A stretch of 64,000 nt of DNA from Lachnospiraceae bacterium AC2029 (GTDB taxonomy: Bacteria > Bacillota > Clostridia > Lachnospirales > Lachnospiraceae), in NCBI GenBank assembly GCA_000703065.1, contig JNLK01000001.1, positions 1,882,001-1,946,000 of the forward strand. Direction: 5' to 3'. Below the pieces are notes generated by a model. It was not told the origin of the DNA, made no database searches, and saw only the letters and a program-made list of their open reading frames with translations. Of the stretch, positions 51,831 through 62,335 are shown piece by piece; the first letter of the stretch is position 1, and each line of letters opens with the position of its first letter. The position numbers were made by a program, and so were the translations under genes.

Positions 51831-52031
51831 ATGGATTTATTTGAGTATTTACCATTTCTTATTCCGTTGGCAGTTGTTGAGGTGGTTTTGATGATCGTGG
51901 CAGTTGTGCATATCCTGAAGCATCCGAATTACAGATGCGGCAGCCGGGCTCTCTGGCTGGTATTATCGATCGTGTTCGGTTTTATCGGACCGATCCTCTA
52001 TTTCGTGATAGGAAAGGGCGAGGCTGAATGA
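51831..52031 (+). CDS. PLDc_N-domain small membrane protein
   Basis: 66 residues from ATG 51831 (MDLFEYLPFL) with a strong GAAGGAGGTTTTCATT. Two hydrophobic helices flank a short loop (HPNYRCGSRALW), the PLDc_N arrangement. Such proteins occur as first genes of ABC operons with antibiotic-resistance-like architecture. Its stop overlaps the ATPase start (ATGA). Confidence 0.85.
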   Translation: MDLFEYLPFLIPLAVVEVVLMIVAVVHILKHPNYRCGSRALWLVLSIVFGFIGPILYFVIGKGEAE

Positions 52032-52933
52032 TGGAGATCCTTTCGATTGAGGGTTTAAAAAAGAGTTTCGGTTCCAAGGAGGTTCTCCGGGGGATCAGCT
52101 TTACGGTGGGAGAGCAGAGCATTTTCGGCTTTATCGGCCGGAACGGTGCCGGCAAGACCACCACCATGAAGATCATCCTGGGACTGCTGACCGCCGACAG
52201 CGGAAGTGTTACGGTCTGCGGGGAACCGGTGACCTACGGGGAGACAGCCACAAATCGTTTTATCGGGTATCTTCCGGATGTTCCGGAATTCTATCCCTAT
52301 ATGCGTGCAAAGGAGTATCTCACCCTTTGCGGGGAGATCAAGGGAATGTCCGGGAAGGAGCTTAGCGGAAGGATCGACGAGCTCCTCGGACTGGTGGGGC
52401 TGTCGAAGGAAAAGTCGAAGATCGGGGGGTATTCCCGGGGCATGAAGCAGAGACTGGGGGTTGCCCAGGCCCTGATCGGCAGGCCGAAGCTTCTCATCTG
52501 TGACGAACCTACCTCCGCATTGGATCCGGTGGGACGGCATGAACTCCTGGAAATCCTGCTGACTGCAAGGGAACAGACCTCGGTGCTCTTCTCCACCCAC
52601 ATCCTGTCGGATGTGGAACGGATCTCGGACCATGTGGCACTTCTGGAGGGCGGAGAGGTGAAGCTGACCGGGTCTATCGAGGAGTTAAAGGCCCTCCGCA
52701 CCGAGCCGGGAGCGGGACTCACTCTGAAAAGCAGTGAGGACGCGGCGAAGGTCCGGAAGGCATTTCCGGGGGCGGAGCAGAAGGAAAACCGGCTGGAGTT
52801 CAGTGAGCTTCAGGCGGCGGAGGAGAGCAGGCTGCTGTCCTATCTGGCCACGGAAAGGATTGCGGTGACAAGGTTCGAACGAAGAGAACCGGATCTGGAG
52901 AATCTTTTTATGGAGGCGATCAAAGAGGCATGA
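52028..52933 (+). CDS. ABC transporter ATP-binding protein
   Basis: 301 residues. A single NBD: Walker A IGRNGAGKTTTM (about 38), Q-loop near GYLPDVPEFYPYM, signature YSRGMKQRLGVAQALI, Walker B LLICDEPTSALDP, His in LFSTHILSDVER. The C-terminal about 75 residues extend beyond the core as in BcrA-type ATPases. Overlaps the permease start by ATGA. Confidence 0.94.
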   Translation: MMEILSIEGLKKSFGSKEVLRGISFTVGEQSIFGFIGRNGAGKTTTMKIILGLLTADSGSVTVCGEPVTYGETATNRFIGYLPDVPEFYPYMRAKEYLTLCGEIKGMSGKELSGRIDELLGLVGLSKEKSKIGGYSRGMKQRLGVAQALIGRPKLLICDEPTSALDPVGRHELLEILLTAREQTSVLFSTHILSDVERISDHVALLEGGEVKLTGSIEELKALRTEPGAGLTLKSSEDAAKVRKAFPGAEQKENRLEFSELQAAEESRLLSYLATERIAVTRFERREPDLENLFMEAIKEA

Positions 52934-53700
52934 GAGGATTTGGTGCATTTTTCAAAAAAGAAATGACGGAGCTGTTCCGTACCTACCGTTGGATCATCCT
53001 TTGCGCGACATCGCTCTTCCTGGGGATCCTGGGACCTCTTATGGCGAAGCTGACGCCCTGGGTCTATGAGCAGATGGGTGATACCCTGAAGGAGCAGGGG
53101 ATCGTGATCAGCGAAGTGACGGTTACGGCTAAGGATTCCTGGGCACAGTTCATCAAGAATATGCCTATACTGCTGATCGTTGTTATCGCAGTTCTCTGCG
53201 GCAGCTATGTAAACGAGTATTCGAAGGGCACGCTGATCCCGCTGGTAACCAAGGGCCTGACACGGATCGCCGTGGTTCTGTCCAAGTTCCTGAATCATTT
53301 TCTGATATGGGCGGCCGGCTTCTGGCTGACCTTCTGGGTGACCTGGGGCTACACAGCGTATTTCTGGGATAATTCCGGCATGAAGCATTTCCTGCTGATG
53401 GGAGTGTTCTTCTGGCTGTTTGGGGTCTTTCTTCTGTCGGTACTGGCCTTCTTCTCATCCTTCCTGAATTCATCGATCCAGGTGCTTCTGGGAGTGGGCG
53501 CGGTATATTTCATCCAGATGCTGTTGGGAATGATCGGGACCGTGGAGCGTTTCCTTCCGAATTATCTTCTGGGGGGCGGAAGCATGCTCACGGGAGAGAC
53601 GCTCCCGGAGGATTATCTTCCCGCGGCAGCGATCGCATCCGGCGGAGCGGTTCTTCTGCTGGTCCTGGCGGTTGTGATAACAAAACACAGACGGATATGA
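52930..53700 (+). CDS. ABC-2-type permease
   Basis: 256 residues with six hydrophobic helices, starting in a cytoplasmic FGAFFKKEMTELFRTYRW. Typical ABC-2 permease with a hairpin-linked YSKGTLIPLVTKGLTR segment. Works with the preceding ATPase as an exporter or antibiotic/peptide-resistance pump; the substrate is unknown. Confidence 0.9.
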   Translation: MRGFGAFFKKEMTELFRTYRWIILCATSLFLGILGPLMAKLTPWVYEQMGDTLKEQGIVISEVTVTAKDSWAQFIKNMPILLIVVIAVLCGSYVNEYSKGTLIPLVTKGLTRIAVVLSKFLNHFLIWAAGFWLTFWVTWGYTAYFWDNSGMKHFLLMGVFFWLFGVFLLSVLAFFSSFLNSSIQVLLGVGAVYFIQMLLGMIGTVERFLPNYLLGGGSMLTGETLPEDYLPAAAIASGGAVLLLVLAVVITKHRRI

Positions 53701-53720
53701 TAGATTTTTCATATGAACGA

Positions 53721-53792
53721 ATAGCATGAAATAAGTGTATGGCATGCAGTAAACAGATGGCATGAAGTAAGTGTATGGCATGCAGTAAATGG
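53721..53792 (+). repeat. Four 18-base direct repeats upstream of the SdpR-like regulator
   Basis: Four head-to-tail units (53721, 53739, 53757, 53775), each ATRGCATGMARTAA plus 4 variable bases. They lie in the gap between the ABC permease and the regulator gene, directly before its ribosome binding site. Confidence 0.9.
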
Positions 53793-53818
53793 AAGACTCG
53801 GAGGAAGGAGATATACAT

Positions 53819-54121
53819 ATGGGCTTTCCTGAAACCTTTAAAGCCCTGTCGGATCCGGTCCGGCGGGAGATACTGACCATGCTGCGGGACGGCAGGATGT
53901 CAGCCGGAGAGATCGCATCGAGGTTCGACATGACGGCTGCAACGGTTTCCTATCACCTGAAGCAGCTGAAGCAGGCGGACCTTGTATATGAAACCAGGGA
54001 AAAGAATTTTATATACTACACTCTGAATACCTCGGTGTTTGAAGAGATCATGATGTGGTTCTCACAATTTGCAGGGAAAAAAAAGGGGGCAGCTCGGGAT
54101 GAAGAGGAAACTGCTGAATAA
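53819..54121 (+). CDS. SdpR-like ArsR-family transcriptional regulator
   Basis: About 100 residues from ATG 53819 (MGFPETFKALSD), GGAAGGAGATATACAT upstream. ArsR winged-helix: FKALSDPVRREILTMLRDG, then the recognition helix MTAATVSYHLKQLKQADLV and a beta-wing TREKNFIYYTLN. No metal-binding Cys pattern, fitting SdpR-like repressors, which pair with SdpI. Overlaps the SdpI gene. Confidence 0.9.
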   Translation: MGFPETFKALSDPVRREILTMLRDGRMSAGEIASRFDMTAATVSYHLKQLKQADLVYETREKNFIYYTLNTSVFEEIMMWFSQFAGKKKGAARDEEETAE

Positions 54122-54776
54122 GGTAGATCTGATCTCCATCGGGCTGTGTGTGGCAGCGGTCCTGCCCGGACTTTTAGTGTATGACCGTCTTCCGGACCGG
54201 ATCGGGATCCATTTCGGCATTAATGGAGAAGCGGATCAGTTTGCGGGTAAATGGGTTGCAATCCTGGGATTTCCGGTGCTGATCTCTCTGATCCAGGCGG
54301 GGCTCTGTATGACCAGCAACCTTTTGAACAGAGAAAATGAGCTCAGCCGGGCGGAGAAGGTGATCCGTTTCATCACCCCGGTCCAGACTTATGTGGTGCA
54401 GATTTCCATTCTGATGTATGGGATGGGCAAGCTTGCAAGCATTACCACGATAGGGGGAATATTGGAGACGGTGATCCTGCTGATCTACGGAAATTATGCT
54501 CCGAAGATGCGCAGGAATACCTTCTTTGGGATCCGTACGCCCCATACCATTGCCAGTCAGGAGGTATGGGATAAAACGCACCGTTTTGCGGGAGCGCTTT
54601 ATATCATAGCCGGAGTTGTCTGCATGCTCCTGACCGTAACGGAGTCGCATCCGGCTCTGTTGTTGGTCCTGCTGGCCGTTACCGTTACAGTGCCCTTCAT
54701 TTATTCAGAGCTCCTGTACCGGAGGATCAGGAGAAGGGAGTCTGCCGGTGACCGGATCTACACCGAAGAAAAGTGA
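54099..54776 (+). CDS. SdpI/YhfL-like immunity-type membrane protein (DUF1648 plus SdpI)
   Basis: 225 residues from ATG 54099 (MKRKLLNKVD), inside the regulator frame. DUF1648 N-terminal part (LPDRIGIHFGINGEADQFAGKW) and an SdpI-like part (RNTFFGIRTPHTIASQEVWDKTHRFAGALY) with six membrane helices. SdpI protects Bacillus cells from the SdpC toxin and signals to SdpR; no SdpABC toxin genes are here, so an orphan or heterologous immunity function is likely. Confidence 0.9.
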   Translation: MKRKLLNKVDLISIGLCVAAVLPGLLVYDRLPDRIGIHFGINGEADQFAGKWVAILGFPVLISLIQAGLCMTSNLLNRENELSRAEKVIRFITPVQTYVVQISILMYGMGKLASITTIGGILETVILLIYGNYAPKMRRNTFFGIRTPHTIASQEVWDKTHRFAGALYIIAGVVCMLLTVTESHPALLLVLLAVTVTVPFIYSELLYRRIRRRESAGDRIYTEEK

Positions 54777-54804: not shown

Positions 54805-54838
54805 AAAAACCCACACCGCGGAAGAGTGTGGGTTTTTT
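54805..54838. terminator. Bidirectional intrinsic terminator
   Basis: AAAAACCCACAC and GTGTGGGTTTTTT form the stem around CGCGGAAGA; T runs on both strands. Lies between convergent genes. Confidence 0.9.
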
Positions 54839-54863: not shown

Positions 54864-56618
54864 TCAGTTTCTCGGCTGGTCGCCGCCGGTCGGAGGTCCT
54901 CCCAGGCCGACTGCCTGTACCACAAAGGGTGAAATGAGAACCGACAGCACGTAGCTGACAAGGATGGAGACCGGAAGGGTCTTCACCCAGTTTCCGAGCC
55001 ACATAACCATCATGGCAGGCTTGTTGGGATCACCGATATGGCTGTAGGAGGTCGCAATACCGATGAAGCTGCAGATCGCACTGATGAGGATCGCATTGAT
55101 AAGCGCAAAGGGAATGGAGTTCAGCAGCGTGAACTTCATGGAAGGCGGAGTTGCACCGGCCTTTGCCGCAAGTGCACGGCCCATTTTTCCCATGGGGATG
55201 ATCAGCGCAAGGATCACACCGACAGTGATGGATTCCAGGATGCTGATGAGATAGTAGACCGGAGCAGGAGGCATACTCTCCAGGGCTCTCGGGTCCACAT
55301 TGTTACGTGTGATGAATGCAAAGATCGCACCCATGATGGCGGAAATGACGATCGCCATGATGATGTTGACAAGCCTTTCTTTCTTCTTCATATCTTTCAC
55401 CTTTCTTACTACCTCTCCACGATCATAGTTGATCAATATGTGACAGTCGCTGACAGGGAATGTGCAGCAGGGATGGATGAAGCCGTCCTTCACATCTGCT
55501 TTTTTCCGGTGCTCAGCGGTTTCGGGAATATAGATCTCGCCGGAGGAAAGACGCGTGCGGCAGAAGCCGCATTCGCCGCTCCGGCAGCGGCTGGGAACCT
55601 TGATGCCGGCCCGTTCCAGTGCAACCAGGATACTTTCCTCCGACTTCGCGGGGATCACCCGGCGTTCTGTCGGAAGATCCACAGTAAGCTGGAAGGTCTG
55701 TCCGGCAGCAGTCTTCGGGTAAGCTTCATCCTTCTCCGGATGGTGGTATTCCCCGGCTACATCAAAGCGCACAAGGCGCTTAGGAATATCCAGCTTTGAG
55801 ACCTCTTTCCTCAGGAAATCATACATGACGGCCGGGCCGCAGGCGAAAATGCTGTAGGCCCCGGCAGGAGCGTATTTACTGATCAGGTCTGCTGACAGGA
55901 AGCCGTGCTCAAAGCCTTCCTGCTCCTCATCGGACAGAACGTAGATCACCTTGAATTTCGGACATTCTGCGGCGATGGCATCCAGCTCCTTCCGGAAAAG
56001 GATTTCGGATTCCTTCTTACAGCCGTACAGGAGGGTGAGAGAGTAGTCCGCCACACCGTCACGTATGGCCTGTGCCATGGAGTAGAAGGGGGTGATACCG
56101 CTTCCGCCGGATAATCCCACGATCTGATCCGGATCCCGCAGAGGCTCATGGTAGAAATTTCCTTCAGGGCCGGATATGCTTACGCGGTCTCCCTTCTTCC
56201 AGTTCTGCAGGATGTAGTTTGATACAAATCCGTCAGGAACCTTCTTGACCAGGATCGAATACTCACCCTCCGCCACATCGGCAGGAGAGGAACAGATGGT
56301 ATAGGGACGTGTCAGCTCGCTTCCGTTGATGGAGAGAAAGACGCTGACATACTGCCCTGCCAGGAAGGGAGCCAGAGGTTGGTTGATGTCCGATTCCTCC
56401 AGACGGTAACACCTTGCGTCCGGAAGTTCGGTCACCTCCTTGATCACCATTGTCTGCTCGTCGGGATGCAGCGTCCTGGCCGTGACATTTGTCTCATGAT
56501 CATATTCAGGCAGACTTCCGGGGGCGGATGAGATCTTCTGCTGACGGAGCTTCAGCTTCTTCCGGTACTCGTCGATGGAGACGTCGGCCAGCGCTTTCTT
56601 TAATGCTTCACTGCTCAT
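54864..56618 (-). CDS. Flavin/2Fe-2S oxidoreductase fused to a C-terminal membrane domain
   Basis: 584 residues. About 40-280 is a ferredoxin-NADP reductase-type domain: RPYTICSSP (FAD), GLSGGSGITPFYSM (NAD(P)) and ACGPAVMYDFL. About 305-395 is a plant-type ferredoxin domain with CRSGECGFCRTRL and a later CC; the 2Fe-2S Cys set is present. From about 410 a Lys-rich turn leads into four membrane helices (IVISAIMGAIFAFI, ILESITVGVILALII, SIPFALINAILISAICSFI, ILVSYVLSVLISPFV), like DUF2798. This anchors the reductase at the membrane. The start overlaps the stop of the flavoprotein gene upstream (ATGA), so they act together. Confidence 0.88.
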   Translation of the reverse strand: MSSEALKKALADVSIDEYRKKLKLRQQKISSAPGSLPEYDHETNVTARTLHPDEQTMVIKEVTELPDARCYRLEESDINQPLAPFLAGQYVSVFLSINGSELTRPYTICSSPADVAEGEYSILVKKVPDGFVSNYILQNWKKGDRVSISGPEGNFYHEPLRDPDQIVGLSGGSGITPFYSMAQAIRDGVADYSLTLLYGCKKESEILFRKELDAIAAECPKFKVIYVLSDEEQEGFEHGFLSADLISKYAPAGAYSIFACGPAVMYDFLRKEVSKLDIPKRLVRFDVAGEYHHPEKDEAYPKTAAGQTFQLTVDLPTERRVIPAKSEESILVALERAGIKVPSRCRSGECGFCRTRLSSGEIYIPETAEHRKKADVKDGFIHPCCTFPVSDCHILINYDRGEVVRKVKDMKKKERLVNIIMAIVISAIMGAIFAFITRNNVDPRALESMPPAPVYYLISILESITVGVILALIIPMGKMGRALAAKAGATPPSMKFTLLNSIPFALINAILISAICSFIGIATSYSHIGDPNKPAMMVMWLGNWVKTLPVSILVSYVLSVLISPFVVQAVGLGGPPTGGDQPRN

Positions 56619-58237
56619 GACTGCCCACCTCCTTCCGGTTTACGGGCGCCCTGCCCGCTGCCTGCTTTCTTCCCGGGGCCCTGTGTCGCGCCTCCGGACA
56701 TTACATATCCCATCACCTGACGCCCCGTGAGATCTCCCTGTGTAAGGGTTGGGAAGAAGCCGCTCAGGCGGTTTGCATGGGCGCCTGTAAAGAAGAGTCC
56801 GGGAACCGTCTGCTCGCCTCCGCCTGCCAGCACCCGGGCGGACATGCCGTCCCACGAGGAGGAGTGGTAGCCATATACGGTACCCTGCGGAGTCCCCATA
56901 TATCTTGCGAAGGTCACCGGTGTTGCGATGGAAACCTCTTCGATATGGGAACGGATATCGATGCCCATGACCTCTTCATAGCGGCGAAGAAGCTGGTCGG
57001 CGATGCGGTGCTTTACCGTATTGTACTCCTCCGGACTTACCTTGTCCCAAAGGTCTGAGACATACCCGGTCGTCAGTGCAAAATGGCACGTTCCCGGCGG
57101 CGTTGCGTCGGGATTCACGATATTGATACAGGTGGAGGTAAGATGAGCCGGAAGACAGCTGCCATGGAGATCCGACTTCTTCGTCAGCTCAAAAAGCTTT
57201 GTTGTATCTGTCGTGGGATAGATAAAGACGGTGTAGTCCCTGATCCCCAGCTCTTCAGGCGTGGCATCCAGACCGAGATAAAGCACAAAGGCACGGAGAC
57301 CATAGCTTCGGGCGTTGGCTTTCTTAAGCTCGGTTTCCGGGATGAGGCTCTTATCGTCCAACATTTTCGTATAAACAACATCCGGAAATGCATTGCTGAC
57401 CACCGCACAGCATTCGACCCTGCGGCCGTCGGCGGTTTCCACACCGCATACGGCACCGTCCTTGGTGAGGATCTTCGTAACCTCTGTGTTGTACCAGAAA
57501 TCACAGCCCTTCCGGCGGGCAGCCTTCTCCAGCTCATTTGCGAGATCATGAGAACGCAGCTTCGGCATGTATGCCCCGCCCCGGAAATAGGCGCAGGTCA
57601 TCATAATGTACCGGGAGGCGTCTATGGTCTCCATATCGGAGCCCTGATAGGGCCAGTAGGCACTGATGATGTCGATGGCTTTCTGCGGCATATGGATCTT
57701 ACGTAGAAATTCGCCGGCTGACATGGACAGGAGCTTCATGAATTCTGCATGCTCTGTCTGAAGGAGCTCCGGATCCGGCTTACCCCGGCTCTTACCCAGA
57801 TACTCAAGGCCGCTTTCGACTGCGGCTTCGGCGTCGAAAAAAAGATCGATGGATTCCCGGCTTCCCGGACAGATGCTCTCCATGTAATCCGTAAATGCCT
57901 TCCGCCCGTGGGGGACGGTTGCATCCAGCAAACGCTGTCCGTCATCCTGGACGATGACACGAAAAGCGTCCGGAATCTCCAGCCATTCCATCTTGATTCC
58001 GAGTTCGTCAAAAAGGCGACTCAGCTCGCCCTGCTCCTCACCCCGACTGAGGGCCGGAATCTCATGCAGGGACGCTTCGAACTCGAAACGCCCGCGAACA
58101 AAGCTGGCAGCGGCGCCACCAACCGTGTTGTGACGTTCGATACACAGACATTTCAGTCCCATCAGGGAAGCGCGGCAGGCGGTGGTAAGTCCGCCGTTTC
58201 CTGCTCCGATGATGACCACATCGTAACGTTCTGACAC
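56615..58237 (-). CDS. CrtI/phytoene-desaturase-like FAD-dependent oxidoreductase
   Basis: 540 residues. N-terminal FAD fold VVIIGAGNGGLTTACRASLMG with CIERHNTVGGAAASF, and the C-terminal motif TVPGLFFTGAHANRLSGFFPTLTQGDLTGRQV typical of amine-oxidase/CrtI/RetSat-type flavoproteins. These desaturate, saturate or isomerise isoprenoid or hydrophobic substrates; no carotenoid gene is near. The coupled reductase could feed it electrons, suggesting a saturase-like reduction, an inference. The tail is Gly/Lys-rich. Start at complement 58235-58237 with AAAAGGAGAAGGAAAAAGTGTCAGA-type context. Confidence 0.87.
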   Translation of the reverse strand: MSERYDVVIIGAGNGGLTTACRASLMGLKCLCIERHNTVGGAAASFVRGRFEFEASLHEIPALSRGEEQGELSRLFDELGIKMEWLEIPDAFRVIVQDDGQRLLDATVPHGRKAFTDYMESICPGSRESIDLFFDAEAAVESGLEYLGKSRGKPDPELLQTEHAEFMKLLSMSAGEFLRKIHMPQKAIDIISAYWPYQGSDMETIDASRYIMMTCAYFRGGAYMPKLRSHDLANELEKAARRKGCDFWYNTEVTKILTKDGAVCGVETADGRRVECCAVVSNAFPDVVYTKMLDDKSLIPETELKKANARSYGLRAFVLYLGLDATPEELGIRDYTVFIYPTTDTTKLFELTKKSDLHGSCLPAHLTSTCINIVNPDATPPGTCHFALTTGYVSDLWDKVSPEEYNTVKHRIADQLLRRYEEVMGIDIRSHIEEVSIATPVTFARYMGTPQGTVYGYHSSSWDGMSARVLAGGGEQTVPGLFFTGAHANRLSGFFPTLTQGDLTGRQVMGYVMSGGATQGPGKKAGSGQGARKPEGGGQS

Positions 58238-58400
58238 TTTTTCCTTCTCCTTTTATTAACCCCAAATATGTACGAAATAACGTACAAAACCCAAGATTCA
58301 TTGTATCAAAAAAAGGTCGATATCTGCAATAGAAACATGGGGAAACATCAGCAGGAAATTCATTTTTTAAATTTCTGAGAATAGATTTCCGAGATTAGGC

Positions 58401-58429: not shown

Positions 58430-58510
58430 AATTGTACACAATCGAATAGCACAAAATATAAAATGCAGGATACAGGGAAAACGAAAGGGAACAGAAAGGA
58501 GTTTTTCATT

Positions 58511-59056
58511 ATGGCAACAGTATATGATTTTAAGGTTAAGGACAGAGCAGGGGAAGAGGTAAGTCTCAGTGATTATGCGGGCAAGGTGCTGCTGATCGTG
58601 AATACGGCTACGGGTTGCGGCTTTACGCCCCACTATGACCCGATGGAGGCCATGTACAGGGAGTTCCGCGACAGGGGATTTGAGATCCTGGATTTCCCCA
58701 GCAATCAGTTTGCAAATCAGGCGCCCGGGGATGATAATGAGATCCATGAATTCTGCACCATGAAGTTCGGAACCGAGTTTCCGCGTTTTGCGAAGATCGA
58801 TGTGAACGGAGATACAGCAGATCCGCTCTTTGCGTATCTGGCAACGGAGAAGCCCTTCGAGAGCTTCGGGAAGGGGCTGAAGAGTGCGGCGCTGAAGAAG
58901 TTTGCCGGAATGAACAATAAGAAGTACGGCGAGAAGGCATATATCAAATGGAATTTCACCAAGTTCCTGGTGGACCGGGAAGGCCACGTGGTTGCAAGAT
59001 TTGAGCCCACGAAGGATATGGACGAGGTGAAGCAGGAGGTTGAGAAACTTCTGTAG
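58511..59056 (+). CDS. Glutathione peroxidase-like thiol peroxidase
   Basis: 181 residues from ATG 58511 (MATVYDFKVK), AAAGGAGTTTTTCATT upstream. Motifs: VLLIVNTATGCGFTPHY with the peroxidatic Cys, FPSNQFANQAPGDDNEI and IKWNFTKFLVDREGHVV. Cys-type GPx, probably using thioredoxin as reductant. The second (resolving) Cys site is FCTMKFG. Likely part of the oxidative stress response, as is the divergent flavoprotein operon's neighbourhood. Confidence 0.92.
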   Translation: MATVYDFKVKDRAGEEVSLSDYAGKVLLIVNTATGCGFTPHYDPMEAMYREFRDRGFEILDFPSNQFANQAPGDDNEIHEFCTMKFGTEFPRFAKIDVNGDTADPLFAYLATEKPFESFGKGLKSAALKKFAGMNNKKYGEKAYIKWNFTKFLVDREGHVVARFEPTKDMDEVKQEVEKLL

Positions 59057-59148: not shown

Positions 59149-60264
59149 ATGGAAAGAGAGGTCAGTCGCGATAAGAAGATCATACGGACAAGTATCATAG
59201 GGATCCTGGCAAATGCTTTTCTTGCTGCCTTTAAGGCGGTGATCGGCCTCATGTCGAACTCCATTGCCATCGTTATGGATGCGGTGAACAATCTTTCGGA
59301 TGCCGCCAGCTCCATCATCACCATCGTCGGCACGAAGCTGGCGTCAAAGGAGCCGGACAGAAAGCATCCCTACGGCTATGGCAGGATCGAATACCTTTCG
59401 GCCATGGCGATCTCGCTTCTGGTGCTGTATGCCGGATTTACCGCATTTGTGGAATCCGTGAAGAAGATCATAACGCCGGATACGCCGGATTATTCGACAG
59501 TGTCCCTTATCATCGTCGGCGTGGCGGTGGTCGTGAAGATCGTTCTGGGACGATATGTGAAGAGCGTGGGTGAGAAGGTAAATTCGGATTCACTGGTGAA
59601 TTCCGGAGAGGATGCCCTTCTGGATTCTGTGATCTCCGCATCAACGCTGGTGGCAGCGGGGATCTATCTGATCTTCGGCGTGTCCCTGGAAGCCTGGCTG
59701 GGTGCTGTGATCGCCCTGGTGATCATCAAGTCCGGTCTGGAAATGCTCGGCGAAACCATGTCCAAGATCCTCGGAGAGCGTGTGGACGCGGAAATGGCGA
59801 AGGAGATCAAGTCAACGATCAGCTCATTTCCGGAGGTGCGGGGTGCCTATGATCTGATCCTGCATAATTACGGACCGGATACCTATCACGGCTCCGTGCA
59901 TATCGAGGTGCCTGACACCATTTCCGTGGATGCACTGGACAGGCTGATCCGTAAGATCCAGGTGGAGGTCTACTCAAAGCATAACGTGATCCTGACGGGA
60001 GTGGGGATCTATTCCTATAACACGAAGGATCCGGAAGCCATAGCGGCAAGAGACCGGGTGGCGCATCTGGTAACGGCGCATCCCCATGTGCTGCAGATGC
60101 ACGGCTTCTATTTTGATCAGGAAGAAAAGACCATGCGGTTTGACATCGTCGTGAGCTTTGATGCGGAGGACCGGAGAACGGTGCACGACGAGATCTGCAG
60201 GGAGGTGGAGGAAGCCTTCCCCGGATATCAGCTGCAGGTGGCTGTGGATATGGATTTCAGCTGA
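59149..60264 (+). CDS. Cation diffusion facilitator (CDF) metal transporter
   Basis: 371 residues. Six helices in the first 210 residues with SNSIAIVMDAVNNLSDAASSII (the metal Asp and Asn/Asp motifs) and the NSGEDALLDSVISASTLV counterpart in helix V. A ferredoxin-like cytoplasmic domain from about 215 (PEVRGAYDLILHNYGPDTYHGSVHIEVP) and a longer C-terminal tail (HLVTAHPHVLQMHGFYFDQ) make it larger than a minimal CDF. Likely exports Zn2+, Mn2+ or Fe2+. Confidence 0.92.
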   Translation: MEREVSRDKKIIRTSIIGILANAFLAAFKAVIGLMSNSIAIVMDAVNNLSDAASSIITIVGTKLASKEPDRKHPYGYGRIEYLSAMAISLLVLYAGFTAFVESVKKIITPDTPDYSTVSLIIVGVAVVVKIVLGRYVKSVGEKVNSDSLVNSGEDALLDSVISASTLVAAGIYLIFGVSLEAWLGAVIALVIIKSGLEMLGETMSKILGERVDAEMAKEIKSTISSFPEVRGAYDLILHNYGPDTYHGSVHIEVPDTISVDALDRLIRKIQVEVYSKHNVILTGVGIYSYNTKDPEAIAARDRVAHLVTAHPHVLQMHGFYFDQEEKTMRFDIVVSFDAEDRRTVHDEICREVEEAFPGYQLQVAVDMDFS

Positions 60265-60300
60265 TTTTCGGATTTTGTGCGAATATATGTTCGATGCTTG

Positions 60301-60330
60301 TTGACATTTGCAAAATAGATATAATATAAT
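60301..60330 (+). promoter_or_regulatory. Promoter of the topoisomerase B gene
   Basis: TTGACA (60301-60306), an 18-base spacer and TATAAT (60325-60330), 65 bases before the start codon at 60395. Confidence 0.75.
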
Positions 60331-60332
60331 GA

Positions 60333-60375
60333 GTTGGCGCTTTCCGGCGGGGCCGGGGAGTGCCAACGAATTTTT
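60333..60375 (+). terminator. Terminator-like hairpin in the topoisomerase leader
   Basis: GTTGGC/GCCAAC outer and CCGGC-GGG-GCCGG inner stems (60333-60367), followed by GAATTTTTATT. It sits between the promoter and the ribosome binding site, so it could attenuate transcription. Confidence 0.6.
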
Positions 60376-60394
60376 ATTACGGGGCGGATTTCCT

Positions 60395-62335
60395 ATGGCA
60401 TATAATGCAGAAAAAATCGAGGTATTAAAAGGCCTGGAGCCGGTAAGAAAACGGCCGGGCATGTATATCGGAAATACAGGGCGGAGCGGTCTGAATCACC
60501 TGGTGCAGGAGATCATCGACAACGCCGTGGATGAGCATATGGCAGGCTTCTGTTCAAAGATCGATGTGGTGATCAATGAGGACGGGTCTGCCACAGTTTC
60601 GGATAACGGGCGCGGTGTGCCGGTGGACATGCATCCTACGGAGAAGCAGCCGGCGGAGCGCGTGGTATACACGGTGCTGCACGCGGGCGGTAAGTTCAAT
60701 TCCTCCACCTACAAGATCAGCGGCGGTCTGCACGGCGTCGGTTCGGCGGTCGTAAATGCGCTGTCGAAGAAGCTGATCGTGGATGTGTACCGTGACGGCT
60801 ACGTGTATCACGATTCCTACGCCTACGGCAAGCCCACCACAAAGCTTGTGGACAATGAACTGCCGAAGGAGCGGATCTCGGAGTCCTCCATGAAGACCGT
60901 ATTCGGGGATAAGGTTCCGGCGAAGCATACGGGAACTACGGTCACCATCTATCCGGATGATGAGATCTTCGAGACGATCAAATTCAAATGCTCCGCCATC
61001 AAGCAGCGGATCAAGGAGACGGCCTATCTGAATCCGGAGCTCACCATTACCTTCTGGAACCGGAGGGACGGAGATGAACCGGAGGTGTTCCATCAGCCCG
61101 GGGGCCTTTCGGCTTTTGTAGAGGATATCGCTACAGGACTGACTCATACCTCTCCGGTGATCGAGATCCGGGGCGAGAGGGATGGCATTTCCGCAGAGAT
61201 CGTTTTCGTCATGACCGAGGACGGGGACGAGAATATCATCGGCTTCACAAATAACATCACGAACCCGGAGGGCGGTACCCATGTGACCTCATGGAAGTCT
61301 GCCTTTGCGAAGGTCGTGAATCAGTATGCAAGAAATGATCTGGGACTTCTGAAGGAGAAGGACAGCAATCTGTCCGGCGCGGATATCCGGAACGGTATGG
61401 TGTCCGTGATCTCCATCCGGCATCCGGATCCCCAGTTCGAGGGTCAGACCAAGACGAAGCTTTCCAACACGGACGTGACCAAGGCTGTGGAGGATATCGT
61501 CAAGGAGCAGCTGACCATCTACTTTGACCGGAATTACGAGGTTCTGAAGGACATCGCAGACCGTGCGGTGACGCTTTCCAGGAAGCGCGCAAACGAGAAG
61601 AACAAGATCAATCTCAGCAAGTTCTCATTTGAAGGAAATGGAAAGCTGGTCAGGCAGGAATCCAACGAAGCGGAGAAGTGCGAGATCTTCATCGTGGAGG
61701 GTGATTCCGCGGGTGGCTCCGCAAAGTCTGCCCGGAACAGGAAGTATCAGGCGGTGCTTCCTCTTCGCGGTAAGATCCTGAACGTGGAGAAGGTACCGGT
61801 CAGCAAGGTATTGGAGAATGCCGAGATCAAAGCCATGATCAACGCCTTCGGCTGCGGGTTCCTGCAGGGCTACGGAAATGATTTCGATATCACGAAGCTG
61901 AACTACGGCAAGATCATCATCATGACGGATGCGGACGTGGACGGTGCGCACATTGCTACGCTGCTGCTCACCTTCTTCTACCGGTTCTATCCGGACCTGA
62001 TCAACGAAGGACACATTTACATCGCCATCCCGCCGCTGTACCGGGTGGGAGACGGAAAGAATACCAAATATCTCTATTCGGATGCGGAGCTGGAGAAGTA
62101 TCGCCGGACCCATACGAAGAAGTTCACCATCCAGCGTTACAAGGGTCTTGGTGAGATGGATGCGGAGCAGCTCTTCGAAACCACCATGGATCAGGAGAAC
62201 CGTCTTCTGAAGCAGGTGACCATCGACAGTGTGGCGGAGGCCACCTCCATCACCCATACCCTGATGGGAAATGAAGTAGGGCCGCGCCGGGAGTACATCG
62301 AGAAGCACAGCCGGGAGGCGAACGTAGATCTGTAG
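60395..62335 (+). CDS. Type IIA topoisomerase subunit B (GyrB/ParE-like, divergent)
   Basis: 646 residues from ATG 60395 (MAYNAEKIEVLKGL). GHKL ATPase: LEPVRKRPGMYIGNT, DNAVDEHMAG, DNGRGVPV, GGLHGVGSAVVNAL. Toprim: IVEGDSAGGSAKSARNRKYQAVLPLRGKILNVEK, TDADVDGAHIATLLL; and QRYKGLGEMDAEQLFETTMD. It keeps the ILNVEK form of GyrB but has an unusual inserted GCGFLQGYGNDFDI stretch and no SLPGKLADC block. No recF-dnaA context. Operon with the A subunit below; whether gyrase or topo IV cannot be told without the A-subunit tail. Confidence 0.9.
   Translation: MAYNAEKIEVLKGLEPVRKRPGMYIGNTGRSGLNHLVQEIIDNAVDEHMAGFCSKIDVVINEDGSATVSDNGRGVPVDMHPTEKQPAERVVYTVLHAGGKFNSSTYKISGGLHGVGSAVVNALSKKLIVDVYRDGYVYHDSYAYGKPTTKLVDNELPKERISESSMKTVFGDKVPAKHTGTTVTIYPDDEIFETIKFKCSAIKQRIKETAYLNPELTITFWNRRDGDEPEVFHQPGGLSAFVEDIATGLTHTSPVIEIRGERDGISAEIVFVMTEDGDENIIGFTNNITNPEGGTHVTSWKSAFAKVVNQYARNDLGLLKEKDSNLSGADIRNGMVSVISIRHPDPQFEGQTKTKLSNTDVTKAVEDIVKEQLTIYFDRNYEVLKDIADRAVTLSRKRANEKNKINLSKFSFEGNGKLVRQESNEAEKCEIFIVEGDSAGGSAKSARNRKYQAVLPLRGKILNVEKVPVSKVLENAEIKAMINAFGCGFLQGYGNDFDITKLNYGKIIIMTDADVDGAHIATLLLTFFYRFYPDLINEGHIYIAIPPLYRVGDGKNTKYLYSDAELEKYRRTHTKKFTIQRYKGLGEMDAEQLFETTMDQENRLLKQVTIDSVAEATSITHTLMGNEVGPRREYIEKHSREANVDL

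Follow-up and report, generated by a model that had tools for sequence, protein, structure and literature searches.

We analysed a 64,000-nucleotide stretch of the genome of Lachnospiraceae bacterium AC2029 (contig JNLK01000001.1, positions 1,882,001 to 1,946,000; hereafter the window), in which two overlapping genes on the minus strand encode a flavin adenine dinucleotide (FAD) protein resembling the carotenoid enzyme CrtI and a reductase that carries its own membrane domain (Table 1). An initial annotation of this DNA had described the two genes as overlapping by ATGA, and both open reading frames and the overlap are borne out. Each start codon is preceded by a ribosome-binding-like site, and the GTG start of the CrtI-like gene is supported because close relatives start at the aligned residue. 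A terminator-like hairpin past the reductase gene may mark the end of the pair's transcript; the consensus scan for such hairpins gave six sites in the region against 3.0 (standard deviation 1.6) in shuffled sequence. The genome, a single contig of 3.86 Mb from an organism related to rumen bacteria, holds one copy each of the CrtI-like and reductase genes, a second reductase match being weak (2.2e-6).

Table 1. Features of the gene pair in the window, with one protein type from related loci (aa, amino acids; AF2, AlphaFold2).
Feature	Position	Strand	Basis and remarks
CrtI-fold FAD protein gene	56615-58237	minus	Open reading frame, 540 aa, GTG start; proposed substrate-reducing subunit
Reductase fusion gene (FAD, NAD(P), [2Fe-2S], four-helix membrane domain)	54864-56618	minus	Open reading frame, 584 aa, ATG start
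ATGA stop/start overlap of both genes	56615-56618	minus	Read from sequence
AGGAGG ribosome-binding-like site upstream of reductase start	56628-56633	minus	Read from sequence
AAGGAG ribosome-binding-like site upstream of CrtI-like GTG	58247-58252	minus	Read from sequence
FAD_binding_6 domain, aa 65-156	56151-56426	minus	Pfam 2.7e-15
NAD_binding_1 domain, aa 169-270	55809-56114	minus	Pfam 2.5e-17
Fer2 [2Fe-2S] domain, aa 319-388	55455-55664	minus	Pfam 2.7e-11; cysteines C345, C350, C353, C384
Basic linker RKVKDMKKK, aa 405-413, ahead of first membrane helix	55380-55406	minus	Sequence comparison
Four-helix membrane domain, aa 407-570	54909-55400	minus	Hydropathy and AF2 model
Terminator-like hairpin, 13 pairs (5 G-C), 27 bases past reductase gene	54805-54837	minus	Consensus scan
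GltD-like Fe-S flavoprotein, 918-950 aa	L102:5147-7996, L103:9490-12243 (isomerase-linked); L080:2169-4922 (near pair)		hypA or hypA/hypB near

The first protein matches the Pfam families Amino_oxidase, NAD_binding_8 and DAO, which are FAD-binding and of the amine-oxidase type. Its best NCBIfam match is carot_isom (TIGR02730) at 97.3 bits, and it matches crtI_fam (TIGR02734) at 93.2 bits, with neither cut-off (586.9 and 238.1 bits respectively) being reached. In its AF2 model, which is of middling confidence (mean pLDDT 72), the top structural match is the gamma-carotene desaturase 4rep (Z 27.3 over 449 residues at 3.4 A); others include 4dgk (Z 20.8), further FAD proteins up to Z 22.6, and the fatty acid isomerase 2b9w (Z 19.2, 12% identity). 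By this model the protein has the CrtI-type FAD fold, and the fold and the FAD-binding Pfam matches agree with its earlier description as a CrtI-type FAD enzyme.

The second protein had been read as a ferredoxin reductase, a 2Fe-2S ferredoxin and four membrane helices in one chain, and Pfam, hydropathy and the AF2 model all concur. The FAD and NAD domains and a C-terminal 2Fe-2S domain with four cysteines follow one another as in phthalate dioxygenase reductase and PaaE, and the best fold match is phthalate dioxygenase reductase 2pia. The protein scores 138.4 bits against PaaE and 71.6 bits against NqrF (TIGR01941), reaching the cut-off of neither (420.8 and 295 bits). Across 26 aligned reductases, C345, C350, C353 and C384 are identical in every row, as are R104, G171, G172, G174, P177 and G261, while Y106 and C260 are each present in 25/26; among these positions are what we take to be the flavin and NAD(P) motifs. 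The initial annotation had treated loss of an FAD or 2Fe-2S site as grounds for dropping its proposal, and the sites are intact on both Pfam and this alignment.

Behind the Fer2 domain, the AF2 model (mean pLDDT 77, pTM 0.54, middling confidence) places helices at residues 407-440, 452-473, 494-525 and 536-570, and hydropathy also gives four membrane helices. Basic residues stand before helix 1 and in the loop between helices 2 and 3 and the outer loops are not basic, and because this charge pattern is positive-inside, the catalytic domains probably lie in the cytoplasm. The basic linker is identical across the 20 fused proteins compared (the window's included); KDMKKK was not found in the fused protein of locus L079. 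No convincing Pfam family emerged for the membrane domain in 17 members or in six free-standing proteins, the matches being weak and varied. At 1e-5 the domain occurs in 12/392 genomes of the order, where, judged by open-frame length, it is fused in the window's own genome and in G548 and free-standing in ten (three strong matches, below 1e-56, and seven weak ones). Free-standing relatives of about 160-190 amino acids (one perhaps 212), again without a Pfam entry, were seen at L040, L041, L042, L044, L045 and L017.

The pairing is not due to chance, because related pairs recur in other genomes. With the reductase as query, eight of 200 genomes of the family matched at 1e-30, namely the window's own, six with reductases lacking the transmembrane (TM) domain and one with a free-standing membrane domain; a CrtI-like gene precedes all six TM-less reductases. 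A scan of named genomes yielded 19 loci, all matching the membrane domain and titled Lachnospiraceae, Oscillospiraceae, Eubacterium, Clostridiales or uncultured Clostridia, and the CrtI-like gene lies directly upstream in 18/18 fused loci where the contig reaches that far. Starting from the other gene, a CrtI-like profile matched 17/391 genomes of the class at 1e-60 and 9/354 of the order at 1e-100. A reductase adjoins the CrtI-like gene in 23 of the 24 distinct genomes from the CrtI search (own genome left out), the sole exception being G898, the weakest class match. Homologues lying always apart, the other outcome that the initial annotation had said would count against it, are thus not what either search returned. 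The two genes are at most 11 bp apart in 39/39 measured pairs and overlap in 29, a measure that took the start codon nearest the upstream stop and so favours short gaps. The CrtI-like gene and the reductase form a conserved two-component flavoenzyme system for which we met no name.

Most pairs are TM-less (6/7 in the family sample and 13/16 in the class sample, leaving 3/16 TM-type pairs in the latter, own included). All 13 TM-type CrtI-like proteins included in a tree form one clade (100/100), and the CrtI-like protein of the additional, TM-less pair at L021 is its sister. The first tree had long outgroups and the second, without them, kept the TM clade; no firm branching order emerged between this clade and the isomerase-linked clade described below. 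Within one clade, then, a membrane domain has been added to what is otherwise a soluble pair. The evidence is consistent with the earlier picture, in which NAD(P)H feeds electrons to a hydrophobic substrate at the membrane. The fusion is not the defining feature of the system.

Several arrangements depart from the simple pair. Locus L021 (3088-9758) has two tandem pairs, of which only the second carries the membrane domain, and L089 and L090 have CrtI-reductase-CrtI triplets. In one clade (L015, L114 and L116) a soluble pair is flanked by two membrane proteins that belong to DUF5692 or come close to it, another membrane association; the assignment comes from Pfam for L114 and L116 (one of four matches below cut-off) and from reading the sequence for L015. 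On a plasmid of Ligilactobacillus acidipiscis (L098:5995-8363), a CrtI-like gene is followed by a 276-amino-acid FNR-like gene whose product has FAD_binding_6 as the only domain found, with a TetR gene beside. Locus L017 was rejected as a pair, as its nearby CrtI is a far paralogue and, the membrane domain aside, nothing there matched this type of reductase; a TetR gene is also near.

From these features we infer an electron path, a reaction direction, a membrane topology and a substrate for the pair. The reductase would take up electrons from NAD(P)H on its FAD and pass them through its [2Fe-2S] cluster to the CrtI-like protein's own FAD; that protein would then reduce a conjugated C=C system in a hydrophobic substrate drawn from the membrane, while the four-helix domain would anchor the reductase with its catalytic domains toward the cytoplasm. 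Conjugated polyunsaturated fatty acids would be the likeliest substrate class, their biohydrogenation being detoxifying or an electron sink. We give not quite even chances to the reading that the two proteins work together as a C=C reductase dependent on NAD(P)H and act on a membrane-borne substrate, most likely a conjugated fatty acid. The fat of milk and meat is shaped by microbes that hydrogenate polyunsaturated fat from the diet, a process that also yields conjugated fatty acids and whose genes are poorly known; if the reading is true, the pair may be a missing part of gut microbial fat hydrogenation, and a testable gene pair with isomerase-linked gene runs would allow the reaction to be traced in genomes and metagenomes.

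The pointer to fatty acids comes from sister clades. In G043, G109, G130, G789 and G428 the CrtI-like gene is preceded, at a distance of 42-194 bases, by a gene for a homologue of 2b9w (entry title 'CLA-producing fatty acid isomerase from P. acnes'; CLA, conjugated linoleic acid), and the G130 protein matches 2b9w at 2.5e-133 over its full length. An isomerase search made independently of the pair found 1/391 genomes of the class (1e-50) and 5/200 of the family (1e-30), and four of these six genes adjoin a pair, at 42-194 bases; in the family sample, three of the five isomerase genomes are among the seven pair genomes (hypergeometric 2.6e-4). Starting from the pair brought up three more cases: the isomerase adjoining it in G428, a remnant of one in G589 and, in G389, a distant homologue. 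The remnant consists of the C-terminal 79 amino acids, is 95% identical to the G789 copy and occupies the same place upstream of CrtI; no full isomerase copy was found in that genome at E<=1e-50. The G389 homologue (3.2e-31 to 2b9w) precedes a CrtI-like gene of a different clade and may not be an isomerase.

Further genes accompany some of these runs. In G109 the isomerase, CrtI-like, reductase, AMP-binding ligase and acyl carrier protein (ACP)-like genes are co-directional; in G043 and G789 the ligase and ACP-like genes are divergent from the isomerase, and in the TM-type G798 an AMP-binding ligase follows the pair. The ACP label is our reading of the sequence, the one protein tested having no Pfam match at 1e-5. 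A broader proposal, which we hold more tentatively, is that the CrtI-like protein and the FAD/2Fe-2S reductase represent an unrecognised family of two-component enzymes that hydrogenate polyunsaturated fatty acids in anaerobic gut and rumen Clostridia; the run of isomerase, CrtI-like, reductase, AMP-ligase and ACP-like genes, complete in G109, would then be a full biohydrogenation cassette, and the fusion in the window a membrane-anchored version working without that isomerase.

A number of observations weigh against assigning fatty acids to the pair. The isomerase genes of G069 and G081 have no pair beside them, and an isomerase-family gene adjoins only 6/26 TM-less pair loci, plus the one remnant. 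No isomerase homologue was found at E<=1e-20 in the window's own genome or in 18 TM-type genomes tested, and the isomerase-linked CrtI proteins compared are 30-35% identical to the window protein and fall outside the TM clade. On a plasmid of Photobacterium sp. DA100 (L101:4379-7236), outside the class, a weak CrtI homologue (24.6% to the L015 protein) has a weak isomerase homologue (26.7%) as the next gene, an arrangement that counts for the fatty acid link; what counts against it is that no FAD/2Fe-2S reductase was found in the 13 kb read. This isomerase-family neighbour is distant and may not be a true isomerase. The neighbourhoods of TM-type pairs, inspected by eye at 17 loci, are variable, with no shared partner or consistent clue to the substrate. 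This counts in favour of some other unsaturated or quinone-like substrate (a steroid, bile acid, quinone or xenobiotic) at which the context does not hint, as do the TetR or FCD-GntR regulators found next to or close to several TM-less pairs; the linkage to an isomerase in two CrtI clades speaks against such a compound, which we consider quite improbable. Nothing pointing to bile acids, one of the substrates suggested in the initial annotation, turned up, in an analysis that made no search aimed at them.

The same electron chain could serve a different acceptor, a plant or host polyene or isoprenoid such as a carotenoid, retinoid or phytyl/polyprenyl chain. The CrtI-like protein is nearest to carotenoid enzymes in structure (4rep) and in its top NCBIfam matches, 8/19 of the named loci come from forestomach samples by title, and plant pigments are plentiful in the forestomach. 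Carotenoid synthesis by carriers of the pair was rejected as unlikely, because phytoene synthase (PF00494) was found in 0/21 genomes tested (own and 20 relatives; a control gave a signal in 7/14). This result counts against biosynthesis, not against use of a dietary polyene; the isomerase and ligase neighbours, however, point to fatty acids, and we regard a polyene or isoprenoid substrate as doubtful though worth retaining. Among the candidates first put forward, the context thus favours polyunsaturated lipids, by the isomerase adjacent in sister clades, over isoprenoids, by the lack of phytoene synthase in these genomes.

Two other reactions can be set against the reduction of a conjugated fatty acid. 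In plant carotenoid isomerase the FAD is kept reduced and the reaction is redox-neutral, and the reductase might likewise merely keep the FAD of the CrtI-like protein reduced while double bonds are shifted, not saturated; carot_isom is indeed the best NCBIfam match, far below its cut-off. Sister clades, however, already have a separate isomerase homologue by the pair, leaving reduction as the missing step, and the close electron supply in nearly all genomes from the CrtI search suggests stoichiometric use, so an isomerase of this kind seems unlikely. Alternatively, the pair could desaturate a lipid and return electrons to NAD(P)+, as several desaturases are among the nearest named relatives. 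Desaturation of an alkyl chain with NAD(P)+ as acceptor is unfavourable, however, the named relatives are Clostridia-type organisms, which are typically strict anaerobes, and such reductases usually carry electrons away from NAD(P)H, which makes desaturation very improbable.

Compared with known systems, the window protein shares its fold and FAD-binding sequence with the carotenoid flavoenzymes CrtI, CrtD and CRTISO (4rep, 4dgk), but differs from them in falling below the curated cut-offs, in having an FNR-2Fe-2S partner gene and in the absence of phytoene synthase from the genomes searched. Its reductase resembles the phthalate dioxygenase reductase/PaaE type in domain order and cysteine pattern; here, however, the partner is a CrtI-like flavoprotein instead of an oxygenase, there is an extra membrane domain, and the equivalog cut-offs are not reached. 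With the P. acnes (Cutibacterium) linoleate isomerase 2b9w the pair has in common the homologue adjoining sister-clade pairs and a general FAD fold, but the CrtI-like protein of the window is structurally nearer to 4rep. Archaeal geranylgeranyl reductase is likewise an FAD enzyme that reduces lipid C=C bonds with electrons from ferredoxin, whose gene is adjacent; it belongs to another flavoprotein family, and its ferredoxin is unfused to a reductase or membrane domain.

The closest functional parallel is the cis-9,trans-11-octadecadienoate (CLA, rumenate) reductase of Butyrivibrio fibrisolvens, which, in the portions of the papers available to us here and below, is membrane-associated, uses NADH and rumenate 1:1 and reduces conjugated fatty acids (PMC4478896, PMC2654759), acting also on conjugated linolenic acid and t11,c13-CLA (PMC2654759). 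It is described there as membrane-associated, not integral, which sets it apart from the window's reductase; the comparison is one of descriptions, and the purified Butyrivibrio enzyme could belong to this family or to a different one. A plasmid search gave 12 records, none of them Butyrivibrio, in a collection that may hold nothing from that genus. One paper argues that biohydrogenation serves detoxification and that the reductase makes up 0.5% of cell protein (PMC2836310). In a 2015 survey, as far as the portion available goes, the reductase could not be sought in Butyrivibrio genomes because no family database contained it, although a reported sequence is noted there (PMC4478896); the corresponding portion of a 2018 genome paper states that a linoleate isomerase gene was not found in its strain or in other Butyrivibrio species (PMC6249431). 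The P. acnes isomerase makes t10,c12-CLA (PMC2885616). A paper cited by PMC7534170 names alpha-tocopherolquinol as an endogenous electron donor, in which case NAD(P)H would not be the direct donor. PMC13365329, PMC12254105, PMC4786556 and PMC6037716, likewise seen in part, provide background on how CLA is formed and on biohydrogenation. Among the open-access PubMed Central (PMC) papers listed, one listing covering 15 of 1,707, none connects a gene pair of this kind with the reduction of fatty acids, judged by title and start of abstract. Overall, the sequence evidence gives a conserved pair with a membrane-anchored variant, and its proposed tie to the hydrogenation of polyunsaturated fatty acids can be tested but is unproven.

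Beyond the pair and its isomerase, a GltD-like Fe-S flavoprotein recurs (Table 1). It stands beside the isomerase in G069 (950 amino acids) and G081, with hypA near and, in G069, hypB also; the same protein type is one gene from the pair in G589, and a contig-edge fragment of it is near the pair in G789. At L082 (3647-4387) a GntR regulator follows the pair, with FCD as its best domain match (5.4e-22) and FadR_C also above cut-off (3.9e-13).

In the window, a glutathione peroxidase gene (58493-59056, plus strand) is divergent from the pair; it was rejected as a partner, because apart from the window only L018 and L012 have a homologue close to the pair (47 further loci searched). On the other side, positions 52028-54776 (plus strand) hold a row of genes for an ABC ATPase, an ABC-2 permease, an ArsR-type regulator and an SdpI/DUF1648 protein, homologues of which lie downstream of the pair in L018. 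At 59149-62335 (plus strand) a cation diffusion facilitator gene is followed by one for a gyrB/parE-type topoisomerase subunit.

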